From NCBI RefSeq assembly GCF_026625885.1, contig NZ_CP113068.1, forward strand, positions 186,001 through 250,000: a DNA stretch of 64,000 bases, written 5' to 3'. Source of the DNA: Roseateles sp. SL47. GTDB lineage: Bacteria > Pseudomonadota > Gammaproteobacteria > Burkholderiales > Burkholderiaceae_C. The translations under genes were made by a program, and so were the position numbers. Below the pieces are notes generated by a model. The model was not told the DNA's origin. It worked only from the letters and a program-made list of their open reading frames with translations, and made no database searches. Positions 7,727 through 10,632 of the stretch are shown here, piece after piece; position 1 is the stretch's first letter; each line of letters starts with the position of its first letter.

Positions 7727-8866
7727 TCAGCGTTGGCGGGCGGCAGCCACAGCCTGGCTGAGCACCTCCAGCACGTCCAGCGAATCGTCCCAGGCCAGGC
7801 AGGCATCGGTGATGCTCTTGCCATATTCCAATTGGGACGGGTCGTCCTTGCCGGGGCTGAACTTCTGCGCCCCGCCGTGCAGGTGGCTTTCCACCATCAC
7901 ACCGAAGATCTGGCGGCTGCCCTCGCGGATCTGGCCGGCGATGTCGCGGGCCACGTCCAGTTGACGCTCATGCTTCTTGCTACTGTTGGCATGCGAGCAG
8001 TCCACCATCAGGCGGGTGGGCAGCTTGGCGGCTTCGAGATCAGCACAGGCCACCGCGACGCTCTGGGCGTCGTAGTTGGGCGCCTTGCCGCCGCGCAGGA
8101 TCACATGGCAGTCCGGATTGCCGCCTGTTTCCACAATCGCCACCTGGCCGTTTTTGTGGACCGACAGGAAGTGGTGGGGGCGGGCGGCCGCCTGGATCGC
8201 ATCGGTCGCGATCTTGATGTTGCCGTCGGTGCCATTCTTGAAGCCGATCGGGGCGGATAGCCCCGAGGCCAGTTCCCGGTGGACCTGGCTTTCGGTGGTA
8301 CGGGCGCCGATGGCCCCCCACGAGATCAGGTCGCCGATGTATTGCGGCGAGATCACATCCAGGAATTCCGAGCCGGCCGGCATGCCCAGGCGGTTGATGT
8401 CCAGCAGCAACTGGCGGGCGATGCGCAGGCCCTCATCAATCCGGTAACTTTCATCCAGGTAGGGGTCATTGATCAGTCCCTTCCAGCCGACGGTGGTGCG
8501 GGGCTTTTCGAAGTAGACCCGCATCACGATTTCCAGCGTGTCGGCGTACTTGTCGCGCTGGCTCATCAGGCGGCGGGCGTATTCCAGCGCGGCCACCGGG
8601 TCGTGGATGGAGCAGGGGCCAATGATCACCAGCAGGCGGTCGTCCTGCCCGTCCATGATGCGCCGGATGCGCTGACGGGTGCCCACCACCAGTTGTTCCA
8701 TGGCCGTGCCACGGATGGGGAAGAAACGGATGAGGTGCTCAGGAGGCGGCAAGGGTGTGATGTCCAGAATGCGTTCGTCGTCGGTTTGGCTGGTCTTGTC
8801 CTGCGGCGAATACCAGCGCTCGGCCTCCTGGGAGCTGCCGTAAGGGTGATGGGACTTGGCATTCAT
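7727..8866 (-). CDS. aroG: 3-deoxy-7-phosphoheptulonate synthase, type I (AroG/AroF/AroH class)
   Basis: This 379-residue enzyme joins phosphoenolpyruvate and erythrose 4-phosphate, the first step of aromatic amino-acid synthesis. Key segments are IIGPCSIHDP (with metal-binding Cys85), KPRTTVGWKG (121-130), GARTTESQ, SVHKNG, CSHANSSKKH and VESHL. The length exceeds the E. coli isozymes (about 350) because of a polar 30-residue N-terminus. Which amino acid inhibits the enzyme cannot be read off. Transcription appears controlled by attenuation through a Phe-rich leader peptide 107 bases upstream. Confidence 0.96.
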   Translation of the reverse strand: MNAKSHHPYGSSQEAERWYSPQDKTSQTDDERILDITPLPPPEHLIRFFPIRGTAMEQLVVGTRQRIRRIMDGQDDRLLVIIGPCSIHDPVAALEYARRLMSQRDKYADTLEIVMRVYFEKPRTTVGWKGLINDPYLDESYRIDEGLRIARQLLLDINRLGMPAGSEFLDVISPQYIGDLISWGAIGARTTESQVHRELASGLSAPIGFKNGTDGNIKIATDAIQAAARPHHFLSVHKNGQVAIVETGGNPDCHVILRGGKAPNYDAQSVAVACADLEAAKLPTRLMVDCSHANSSKKHERQLDVARDIAGQIREGSRQIFGVMVESHLHGGAQKFSPGKDDPSQLEYGKSITDACLAWDDSLDVLEVLSQAVAAARQR

Positions 8867-8917
8867 GGGTCAGGTCTTCCTGTCTGTGTGAGGGGCCGCG
8901 CACAAGGTGTGGAGGCG

Positions 8918-8951
8918 AAAAAAAACCGCCGGGTGGTGGACCCGGCGGTTT
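8918..8951 (-). terminator. Attenuator terminator in the aroG leader
   Basis: A perfect 12-bp stem (8923-8934 with 8940-8951) with a 5-base loop is followed on the minus strand by an uninterrupted run of T. It lies between the leader-peptide stop (8973) and the aroG start (8866), so it would end transcription before aroG unless it is prevented from folding. Its first RNA arm can pair instead with 8992-9000 in the leader-peptide region. Confidence 0.9.
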
Positions 8952-9000
8952 CTTGAGGATTCTTGGCGCTGCTTATGCGTTCGCCTCTCCTCCGCCGGGG
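8952..9000 (-). promoter_or_regulatory. Candidate antiterminator region of the aroG attenuator
   Basis: The RNA from 9000-8992 reads CCCCGGCGG. It can form at least 8 G-C-rich pairs with CCGCCGGG in the 5' arm of the terminator, which would free the RNA polymerase. The same segment can fold locally with the preceding CCGC when the ribosome has passed. These alternatives are the mutually exclusive folds expected of ribosome-mediated attenuation; the folds are paper-paired and not computed. Confidence 0.7.
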
Positions 9001-9050
9001 CGGTGCGAGAACCAAAAGAAAGCAAAATAAAACTTGCTGACGAAACGCAT
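8973..9050 (-). CDS. Aromatic leader peptide of aroG (Phe-rich, 25 residues)
   Basis: This is a 25-codon frame starting with ATG at 9050 and ending in TAA at 8973. Residues 3-14 contain six Phe, one Tyr and one Trp, with the core FYFAFFWF at 7-14; the C-terminal part RPGGGEANA overlaps the antiterminator strand. Seven of eight residues in the core are aromatic, very unlike the surrounding sequence. Position, codon content, antiterminator and terminator together make it a regulatory peptide that would sense charged tRNA-Phe, possibly with Tyr and Trp. No good Shine-Dalgarno sequence precedes the ATG. Confidence 0.88.
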   Translation of the reverse strand: MRFVSKFYFAFFWFSHRPGGGEANA

Positions 9051-9057
9051 GGGCTTG

Positions 9058-9087
9058 ATATTGCCTGTGACCTTCATGAGCCGTCAA
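9058..9087 (-). promoter_or_regulatory. Candidate aroG promoter
   Basis: TTGACG (9087-9082) and CAATAT (9063-9058) are separated by 18 bases on the minus strand. If used, transcription would begin about 7-8 bases later, almost on the leader-peptide ATG at 9050. The -35 is good and the -10 is weak, so this is tentative. Confidence 0.4.
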
Positions 9088-9168
9088 GAGGGCCGATGAG
9101 CCTCGATGAGGGGCCGGTGTGACTGGCGCACCACGTCCACATCCCTCCCCTCGATGCCTTCCGGGCGC

Positions 9169-10632
9169 TCAGGCGGTGCCACCGACGGTCAGCCCGTCGA
9201 TGCGCAGCGTGGGCTGGCCCACCCCCACCGGGACGCTCTGGCCTTCCTTGCCACACACGCCCACACCGGTATCCAGCTTCATGTCGTTGCCGATCATGGA
9301 GACACGGTTCATGGCGTCCGGGCCGTTGCCGATGAGGGTGGCACCCTTCACCGGATACTGCAGCTTGCCCTTTTCCACCCACCAGGCTTCGCTGGCAGAG
9401 AAGACGAACTTGCCGGATGTGATATCCACCTGACCGCCACCGAAGTTGGTGGCGTAGAGCCCCTTGTCGATGCTGGCGATGATTTCTTCCGGAGACTTGT
9501 CGCCACCCAGCATGTAGGTGTTGGTCATGCGCGGCATCGGCAGATGGGCATAACTTTCGCGGCGTCCGTTGCCGGTGGGCGCGACCTTCATCAGGCGCGC
9601 ATTCATGGCGTCCTGGATGTAGCCTTTGAGGATGCCGTCTTCAATCAGCACATTGCGCTGAGAGGCGCAGCCCTCGTCGTCCACGTTCAGCGAGCCCCGG
9701 CGGTCGGGGATGGTGCCATCGTCCAGCACGGTCACGCCCTTGGCGGCCACGCGCTGGCCGATGCGGCCGGCGAAGGTGCTGGAGCCCTTGCGGTTGAAGT
9801 CGCCCTCCAGGCCGTGGCCCACGGCTTCGTGCAGCAGCACGCCCGGCCAGCCTGGGCCCAGCACCACGGTCATTTCGCCAGCGGGTGCGGGGCGGGATTC
9901 GAGATTGGTCAGGGCGGCGGAGACGGCCTGGTCCACATAGGACGCAATCATTTCGTCGGTGAAATAGGCCAGGCCAAAGCGGCCACCGCCGCCACCGGAG
10001 CCGACCTCACGCCGGCCATTGCTTTCAGCGATGACGGTCACGGACAGGCGCACCAGCGGGCGCACATCGGCAGCCAGGGTGCCGTCGGCACGGGCGATCA
10101 ACACCACTTCATGTTCAGCGGCCAGACCGGCCATCACCTGGGCGATGCGCGGGTCCTTGGCACGGGCCAGCCGTTCGGTGCGTTCCAGCAGGGCCACCTT
10201 TTCGGTGCTGTCCAGGCTGGCAATGGGGTCGGCGTCTCCATAGAGGGCGCGACTGGCCGCCACCACGGGCTCGCTGGGCACCTTCACGCGCCTGCTCTGA
10301 CCGGCGCTGGCGATGGCGCGGACGGTGCGGGCGGCGTCGAGCAATGCGGCTTCGGAGATGTCGTCGGAGTAGGCAAAGGCGGTTTTTTCGCCGGCCACGG
10401 CGCGGACCCCCACGCCCTGGTCGATGGAGAAGCTGCCGCTTTTGACAATGCCTTCTTCCAGGCTCCAGCCTTCAGCGCGGGTGGTCTGGAAATACAGATC
10501 CGCATCATCGACACGATGTTCGGTGATCAGGCGCAGCGCCTGGGACAACGAAGCGTCGGTCAGGCCGAAGGGTTCCAACAGCTGGGCACGGGCAGTGACC
10601 AGGCGGGCGAGAGTGGGTTCGCGCGAAATCAT
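9169..10632 (-). CDS. tldD: Metalloprotease TldD
   Basis: This 487-residue TldD subunit of the TldD/TldE zinc protease processes microcin-type peptides and acts on CcdA-like antitoxins in E. coli. The zinc motif HEAVGH is at 268-273 within the glycine-rich [17 protein letters not shown]; a second conserved block is [15 protein letters not shown]. The C-terminal barrel [17 protein letters not shown] is intact. The frame is open 165 bases further upstream, but the ATG at 10632 gives the family length and the usual [12 protein letters not shown] start. A tldE partner is not in this window. Confidence 0.95.

Follow-up and report, generated by a model that had tools for sequence, protein, structure and literature searches.

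Comparative analysis predicts a leaderless, ribosome-mediated attenuator of the DAHP synthase gene aroG in Roseateles and related Burkholderiales

In Escherichia coli, the trp operon and pheA are preceded by the leader-peptide attenuators trpL and pheL, and the genes for 3-deoxy-7-phosphoheptulonate (DAHP) synthase are under TyrR/TrpR control. The enterobacterial leaders ilvL and thrL are multivalent attenuators. The aroG locus analyzed here resembles trpL and pheL in having a short frame of control codons and, in the same order, protector, antiterminator, and terminator helices. It differs from them in its target, a DAHP synthase (the first common enzyme), in its three-aromatic block, and in the lack of a clear Shine-Dalgarno sequence. 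As with ilvL and thrL, one leader peptide covers several end products of a branched pathway; unlike in those leaders, the pathway is that of the aromatic amino acids, and Phe, Tyr, and Trp, products of three branches, stand next to each other in a block of four codons.

In Sinorhizobium meliloti, the trpL transcript (rnTrpL/peTrpL) begins directly with the start codon of its leader frame, and a role in trans is reported for peTrpL (PMC7298713). Our locus shares with it the 5' end at the leader ATG and the attenuation of a gene for aromatic amino acid synthesis, both predicted here, whereas in S. meliloti the sensed amino acid is Trp alone and the gene, bacterial class, and sequence are different (PMC7298713). 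For beta-proteobacteria, a Burkholderia cenocepacia study describes leaderless genes, with transcripts that run from the start codon and a TA-rich promoter motif replacing the Shine-Dalgarno sequence (PMC4603805). That study, unlike ours, deals with annotated genes, and the terms "leader peptide" and "aroG" are absent from its main text (PMC4603805). The type of mechanism proposed below is classical (trpL/pheL), and a leaderless attenuator is already known from S. meliloti trpL (PMC7298713).

On the minus strand of the 64,000-nucleotide stretch of Roseateles sp. SL47 DNA that we analyzed (the window), tldD, which ends near 9169, is followed by the leader frame (9050-8973), a hairpin with a T run (8951-8918), aroG (8866-7727), and htpG. 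An earlier reading of the letters alone (here the sequence-only reading) had placed aroG behind a leader and a terminator, and the gene at this position indeed encodes a class I DAHP synthase, scoring 532 bits against TIGR00034, for which the cut-off is 173. Among the matches listed, the closest named relative was Pelomonas sp. CA6, with an AroG 89% identical. The SL47 genome (6.39 Mb, a single contig) encodes a second class I DAHP synthase, 58% identical to AroG, and no leader was found upstream of this second gene. The features of the locus are the following:

9082..9087, minus strand: -35 element TTGACG, 18 nt before the -10 element; the same in 16/16 genus genomes
9058..9063, minus strand: weak -10 element CAATAT, ending 7 nt before the ATG; the family has TACATT within TGCTACATT
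8973..9050, minus strand: frame of the leader peptide MRFVSKFYFAFFWFSHRPGGGEANA, without a clear Shine-Dalgarno sequence and predicted to be leaderless (translation, family comparison)
9009..9020, minus strand: control codons F11-F12-W13-F14 (TTC TTT TGG TTC), from conservation and the stall footprint model
9007..9011, minus strand: 5' strand of the protector helix, UUCUC (codons F14-S15), from pairing across 80 sequences
8992..8999, minus strand: antiterminator strand CCCGGCGG inside the leader frame (own sequence and family pairing)
8985..8989, minus strand: 3' strand of the protector helix, GAGAG, from pairing across 80 sequences and the leader fold
8940..8951, minus strand: 5' arm of the terminator, AAACCGCCGGGT, also the partner of the antiterminator strand (own sequence and family)
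8918..8934, minus strand: 3' arm of the terminator, ACCCGGCGGTTT, entering the T run at 8925-8918 (own sequence and family)
7727..8866, minus strand: aroG, class I DAHP synthase (TIGR00034 match)

Re-reading of the minus strand returned every detail that had been given for the leader, namely, an ATG...TAA frame of 25 codons encoding MRFVSKFYFAFFWFSHRPGGGEANA, with FYFAFFWF at residues 7 to 14 and six Phe, one Tyr, and one Trp among residues 3 to 14. We compared this frame with its counterparts in the family Burkholderiaceae_C, where AroG was found in 149 of 150 genomes; the region upstream of the best match was taken in 143 of these, SL47 included, and six genomes with weaker best matches were left out. 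A short frame with clustered codons for the end products was present in 140 of the 143 regions (139 ATG starts and one GTG start, 18 to 29 codons), and 128 of these 140 leaders contain all three aromatic amino acids. Two of the three misses (L141 and L143) are contig ends, and in the third (L142) the leader stands before a tandem DAHP synthase copy (L328) instead. The genome concerned (G140) carries two tandem DAHP synthase genes, with a leader only before the first.

When the 140 leaders were anchored on the Trp codon, Tyr was found at W-2 in 111, Phe at W-1 in 138, Trp itself in 129, Phe at W+1 in 125, and Ser at W+2 in 119. The block adjoining the protector helix reads exactly Tyr-Phe-Trp-Phe (YFWF) in 90/140 leaders and FFWF in 12/140; that of SL47 is Phe-Phe-Trp-Phe, with Phe at the W-2 position. 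A second conserved cluster of aromatic codons lies at W-6 to W-4 (66 to 89% aromatic; n = 140), where Phe and Tyr interchange, and the residues past the Ser are variable. Phe is encoded by TTT in 385 of 626 cases (61%) in the family leaders, compared with 13 of 67 (19%) in six coding sequences of the window. A longer in-frame version of the SL47 frame (34 codons) would begin at an ATG at 9077. Since this ATG sits inside the predicted promoter, and since only 21/140 family leaders (SL47 included) have an in-frame ATG in the 60 nt ahead of their start codon, with none in 119/140, we rejected 9077 as the main start and took 9050 as the shared one.

The region in front of 9050 has the appearance of a promoter. 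TTGACG with an 18-nt spacer was found in 16/16 genus genomes (15 by script and L324 by eye), where it precedes a weaker -10 element, and the -10 element of SL47 itself matches 5/9 letters of TGCTACATT. The latter, an extended -10 that contains TACATT, occurs in its exact form in 76/140 family leaders. At least 7/9 of its letters precede the start codon in 127/140 leaders compared with 0/140 control positions, with a small bias arising from the use of the -10 score in choosing among alternative start codons. In 95 of the 112 leaders that match 8 or 9 letters, the -10 element is separated from the start codon by 7 or 8 nt. A good -35 element (5 or 6 of 6) was seen before only 19/140 leaders, versus 1/140 control positions, and the base preceding the start codon is C in 107/140. 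The mean anti-Shine-Dalgarno energy was -0.71 kcal/mol for the leaders, -1.61 for shuffled letters, and -1.79 for the aroG starts (chosen by a simple rule); values of -4.5 kcal/mol or lower were reached by 2/140 leaders versus 33/140 aroG starts. The position of the extended -10 about 7 nt before the AUG, found in those 127 leaders and in weaker form in SL47, together with the lack of a clear Shine-Dalgarno sequence strongly suggests that the leader mRNA is leaderless in this family; transcription is predicted to begin at 9050 or an adjacent base. When 8800-9300 was scanned for promoters and terminators with a generic tool, no match was returned, probably because of the degenerate -10 and the A/U pairs with which the hairpin enters the T tract.

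Between the leader frame and aroG lies the terminator, a 12-bp hairpin (AAACCGCCGGGT-CCACC-ACCCGGCGGTTT) continued by further T, the run of eight T spanning 8925-8918, just as the sequence-only reading had described it at 8951-8918. A script found the family form of this terminator (AAACCGCCGG...CCGGCGGTTT) in 139/140 leaders, two of which (L085 and L130) were mis-picks; the hairpin of L100 is visible but clipped by the boundary of the analyzed region, and 137 terminators were carried into the later counts. In an alignment of 80 of these 137 leaders (A1), the terminator was 95.9% paired, and its covariation was not above that of shuffles in these 80 sequences. The antiterminator is formed by the same 5' arm paired with a strand in the 3' codons of the leader, so that it and the terminator are mutually exclusive. 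Its leader strand, CCCCGGCGG, was found where it had been placed, at 9000-8992 on the minus strand within the end of the frame, and the pairing is conserved in relatives: the mean pairing score was 19.9, compared with 13.2 in shuffled regions, and exceeded the mean of 20 shuffles of each genome's own region in 136/137 cases. Conservation of the aromatic codons (140/143) and of the antiterminator pairing (136/137), the comparison proposed in the sequence-only reading, was thus seen for both.

Own arms paired better than arms swapped in from other genomes in only 98/137 cases (means of 19.9 versus 18.7), a small gain because most arms are alike. Matched changes could nevertheless be followed individually. 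The arm CCGTCGG occurs in ten genomes, eight of which carry a matching CCGACG(G) in the leader and two of which keep CCGGCGG; with CCGACG(G), the peptide usually has DG instead of GG, and the terminator then holds a G-U pair. Further matched changes are CCGCTGGG with CCCAGCGG (L144) and TCGCCGG with CCGGCGA (L138), and L129 has one as well. The antiterminator strand ends in three different reading frames (100, 31, and 4 of 135), so it is the RNA rather than the peptide that is kept there.

The third helix, the protector UUCUC:GAGAG, overlaps the control codons. In the 80 sequences, 95.3% of its cells are paired, with double-sided changes in 3/5 pairs, and leader nucleotides 37 to 67 folded alone gave -10.9 kcal/mol. 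The antiterminator was 87.1% paired in the same alignment, in which several rows are off by one column. Taken jointly, the protector and the antiterminator scored above each of 500 shuffles on four of the five measures used, and above 496 of them on the remaining one. When the 3' partners were shifted by +2 or +3 columns, more double-change cells resulted (14 and 21, versus 9 at the true register), with only about half of the cells pairing; despite these slide counts, the covariation score peaks at the true register. Neither this protector helix nor the predicted leaderless start was part of the sequence-only account.

We modeled stalling with the terminator arm not yet made and with a ribosome assumed to cover 17 nt ahead of the first base of the A-site codon and 13 nt beyond it. 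The mean probability that the antiterminator strand is paired locally was 0.52 without a ribosome (n = 136) and fell to 0.07 and 0.03 with the A site at the Trp or the next Phe codon, respectively (n = 136). A stall one codon before Trp opened the strand partially (0.31), the Tyr codon at W-2 of YFWF leaders was weakly effective (0.44), and stalls at least three codons before Trp left it at 0.51 to 0.54. In this model, the effective codons are predicted to be F12-W13-F14 and partly F11, not Phe codons in general. The statement of the sequence-only reading that stalling at Phe codons frees aroG is accordingly narrowed by the footprint model, which retains the last of these codons and drops the first ones. 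Because stalls at Trp and the next Phe free the antiterminator strand, the best-conserved codons are largely those effective in the model, and this match is the main support for a predicted sensing of Phe and Trp in SL47. Stalls at W-6 to W-4 did not open the protector helix in the footprint model, though these codons are conserved. At the decision point, nearly all states favored the antiterminator in equilibrium folding: with only the 5' arm of the terminator made, it won with no ribosome present (P = 0.94), whereas for the full-length RNA its probability was 0.0 in every state tried. We therefore rejected equilibrium folding as proof of switching, as it does not discriminate between states, and the model needs co-transcriptional timing of protector formation. 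Such timing is likewise assumed for classical attenuators.

From the frame, the three helices, their conservation, and the gene order, all of which are observed, we infer the start site, the stalling, the order of folding, and the physiological response as follows. RNA polymerase would begin with the A of the leader AUG or a neighboring base, and ribosomes would have to load on a 5'-terminal AUG, as the promoter position and the absence of a clear Shine-Dalgarno sequence suggest. With charged tRNA-Phe and tRNA-Trp (and tRNA-Tyr in most relatives) plentiful, the ribosome would clear the FFWF/YFWF block, the protector would fold and sequester the antiterminator strand, and the terminator would form, so that aroG is not made. 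A ribosome waiting at the last aromatic codons would cover the 5' strand of the protector; the free antiterminator strand CCCGGCGG would then pair with CCGCCGGG, and transcription would enter aroG. Shortage of any one of the sensed amino acids could trigger readthrough, making the leader an OR-type sensor of the common pathway. Comparative evidence (frame, helices, and conservation) supports the ribosome-mediated attenuation proposed in the sequence-only reading, and we consider it very probable that such an attenuator, with a leaderless leader and readthrough upon stalling at the last aromatic codons, controls aroG. A wider version, a leaderless OR-gate, is improbable: loading of 70S ribosomes on a 5'-terminal AUG would make the switch respond to how well the cell can initiate leaderless translation as well as to charged aromatic tRNAs, and the terminated RNA, about 133 nt long, would itself be a mini-mRNA and a small RNA that acts elsewhere, as reported for S. 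meliloti rnTrpL/peTrpL (PMC7298713).

The same attenuator could also be transcribed from further upstream, for example, by readthrough from tldD, which lies directly upstream on the same strand, with an ordinary 5'-UTR, possibly the 9077 ATG, and no part for leaderless translation. The weak -10 of SL47 and the 21 leaders, its own among them, with an in-frame upstream ATG are compatible with such a start, as are promoter-like elements seen by eye in relatives: in Burkholderia, Caballeronia, and Paraburkholderia, TTATAAA ends about 36 to 38 nt ahead of the leader ATG, and in Rugamonas and Janthinobacterium, TTATAGT ends about 25 to 27 nt ahead of it. The leaderless layout thus does not seem universal, and versions with a 5'-UTR seem to exist in these two groups. 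Within the family, however, the near-fixed distance of the extended -10 from the ATG in 127/140 genomes, the TTGACG of the genus, the lack of a clear Shine-Dalgarno sequence, and the 119/140 leaders without an upstream in-frame ATG make an upstream start unlikely for SL47.

A TnaC-like arrest, in which the ribosome is halted not by uncharged tRNA but by a nascent peptide that has bound a free aromatic amino acid, would account for an aromatic-rich peptide with a very well kept FWFS. We regard it as very improbable, as Phe and Tyr swap at W-6 to W-4, the residues after the Ser vary, RNA pairing, found in different reading frames, accounts for the conservation of the C-terminal part, and a biosynthetic gene would need the opposite logic, since the free amino acid would have to stall the ribosome and yet cause termination. 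That the hairpin is simply the terminator of tldD, beside a chance frame and without regulation, is barely conceivable. A terminator is expected after tldD, and the T run is strong, but a best short frame with at least six aromatics in nine residues was present in 132/140 real upstream regions compared with 1/1,400 of their dinucleotide shuffles, and the peptide block, the antiterminator, and the protector are all conserved. The leader is also found where the end of tldD was not recognized within 250 nt (65/140 leader loci), and it precedes aroG in 27/27 loci inspected across the order. A chance frame was thus rejected on the basis of the shuffles and the conservation, and the leaderless attenuator of aroG remains the preferred reading.

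We followed its distribution with a covariance model (R1) built from 80 relatives, SL47 included. In the SL47 genome, R1 gave one strong match, the aroG leader (E = 2e-26); the next (E = 0.03) covered only the terminator part, and no second copy of the leader was detected by this model. Among seven regions upstream of other DAHP synthase paralogues, six had no leader, and the seventh belongs to the tandem gene of G140. All 16 genus genomes, including SL47, matched R1 over its full length. In the order, full-length matches with E < 1e-6 occurred in 60/250 genomes, 53 of them within 13 other families, as tallied by hand with a model tuned to Burkholderiaceae_C. At E ≤ 0.01, the tally was 125/250, many of them to the terminator part only, and half of the genomes were without a match. 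The 27 order-level loci inspected (L155-L181), 23 of which are outside the family, all carry AroG with the leader upstream. Among 369 genomes drawn at the level of the class, four from outside the order had full-length hits below 2e-6 adjoining an AroG 61 to 64% identical, and at these four gammaproteobacterial loci, elements resembling TTATCAAT again adjoin the start codon. A fifth full-length hit (L273; E = 7e-5) had no AroG.

Of 80 named loci, a leader is present at 63; the script found none at 15 (one, L202, is a contig end), and at 2 (L228 and L252) the frame was judged spurious. Loci with the leader include those of Roseateles, Polaromonas, Variovorax, Acidovorax, Paraburkholderia, Massilia, and Xanthomonas bonasiae. 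No leader was found by script at the loci from Polynucleobacter (three), Methylotenera (two), Thauera, Azoarcus, Thioalkalivibrio, and Chitinimonas, at two Cupriavidus loci (a third, L257, has one), or in two MAGs labeled Planctomycetota and Verrucomicrobiia; no terminator of the same type was seen at the 14 of these 15 loci that were inspected for one. In L205, L207, and L208 (Polynucleobacter) and in L242, AroG is 77 to 80% identical and no leader was found. In L205 and L242, the two of these that were inspected, aroG directly follows tldD and has TAAAAT near its start codon, which would fit loss of the attenuator and a leaderless aroG.

No model in Rfam, NCBIfam, or Pfam matched the leader element. 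Searches of Rfam with the window and 14 related loci gave 0 matches at the gathering score, with 8 sub-threshold hits far below their gathering scores, and we rejected a known Rfam element, such as the Phe or Trp leaders, on this basis. The Burkholderia sRNA ncS54, a weak hit (E = 0.46), was likewise rejected, having no match in 14 aroG loci at the gathering score or in 6 at E ≤ 0.5. Among the papers listed by searches of the open-access literature, no title or abstract dealt with attenuation at a DAHP synthase gene in this group of bacteria. The leader is real and, as far as these searches go, its target gene, three-aromatic block, leaderless layout in the family, and wide distribution are new; an earlier notice outside open-access main texts is possible. 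The table of 82 short 5'-UTRs in PMC5688073 may well contain the Burkholderia version. The element is easily recognized and could join genome annotation. It would be a natural attenuator that senses three amino acids in four adjacent codons and on which ribosomes load without a Shine-Dalgarno sequence.

Neither TrpR (TIGR01321) nor the TyrR-type HTH (TIGR04381) had a match in the SL47 genome, and an E. coli control was positive for both. This fits a genome that uses attenuation instead, and the leader provides a testable explanation for the control of entry into the shikimate pathway in SL47 and in many Burkholderiales. Upstream of trpE in the same genome (L278; C1:629775-631160), we observed a 26-codon frame, MFITRKHIKGSNDRGAWPWR..., and TGCTACACT lies 8 to 10 nt before its ATG, slightly altered in L298 and L305 among the relatives L291-L307. 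No T-run terminator was seen in the six trpE upstream regions inspected. With its Trp codons, the frame resembles another leader that is leaderless or nearly so and may act by another route. In the wider version judged improbable above, this second promoter, laid out like that of aroG and followed by a conserved GAWPWR frame, would mean that leaderless leader peptides are a general design among these bacteria. The frame upstream of trpE was present in 15/16 genus genomes (none by script in L304), and GAWPWR was also found upstream of trpE in L295, in L306, and, without a -10 match, in L290.
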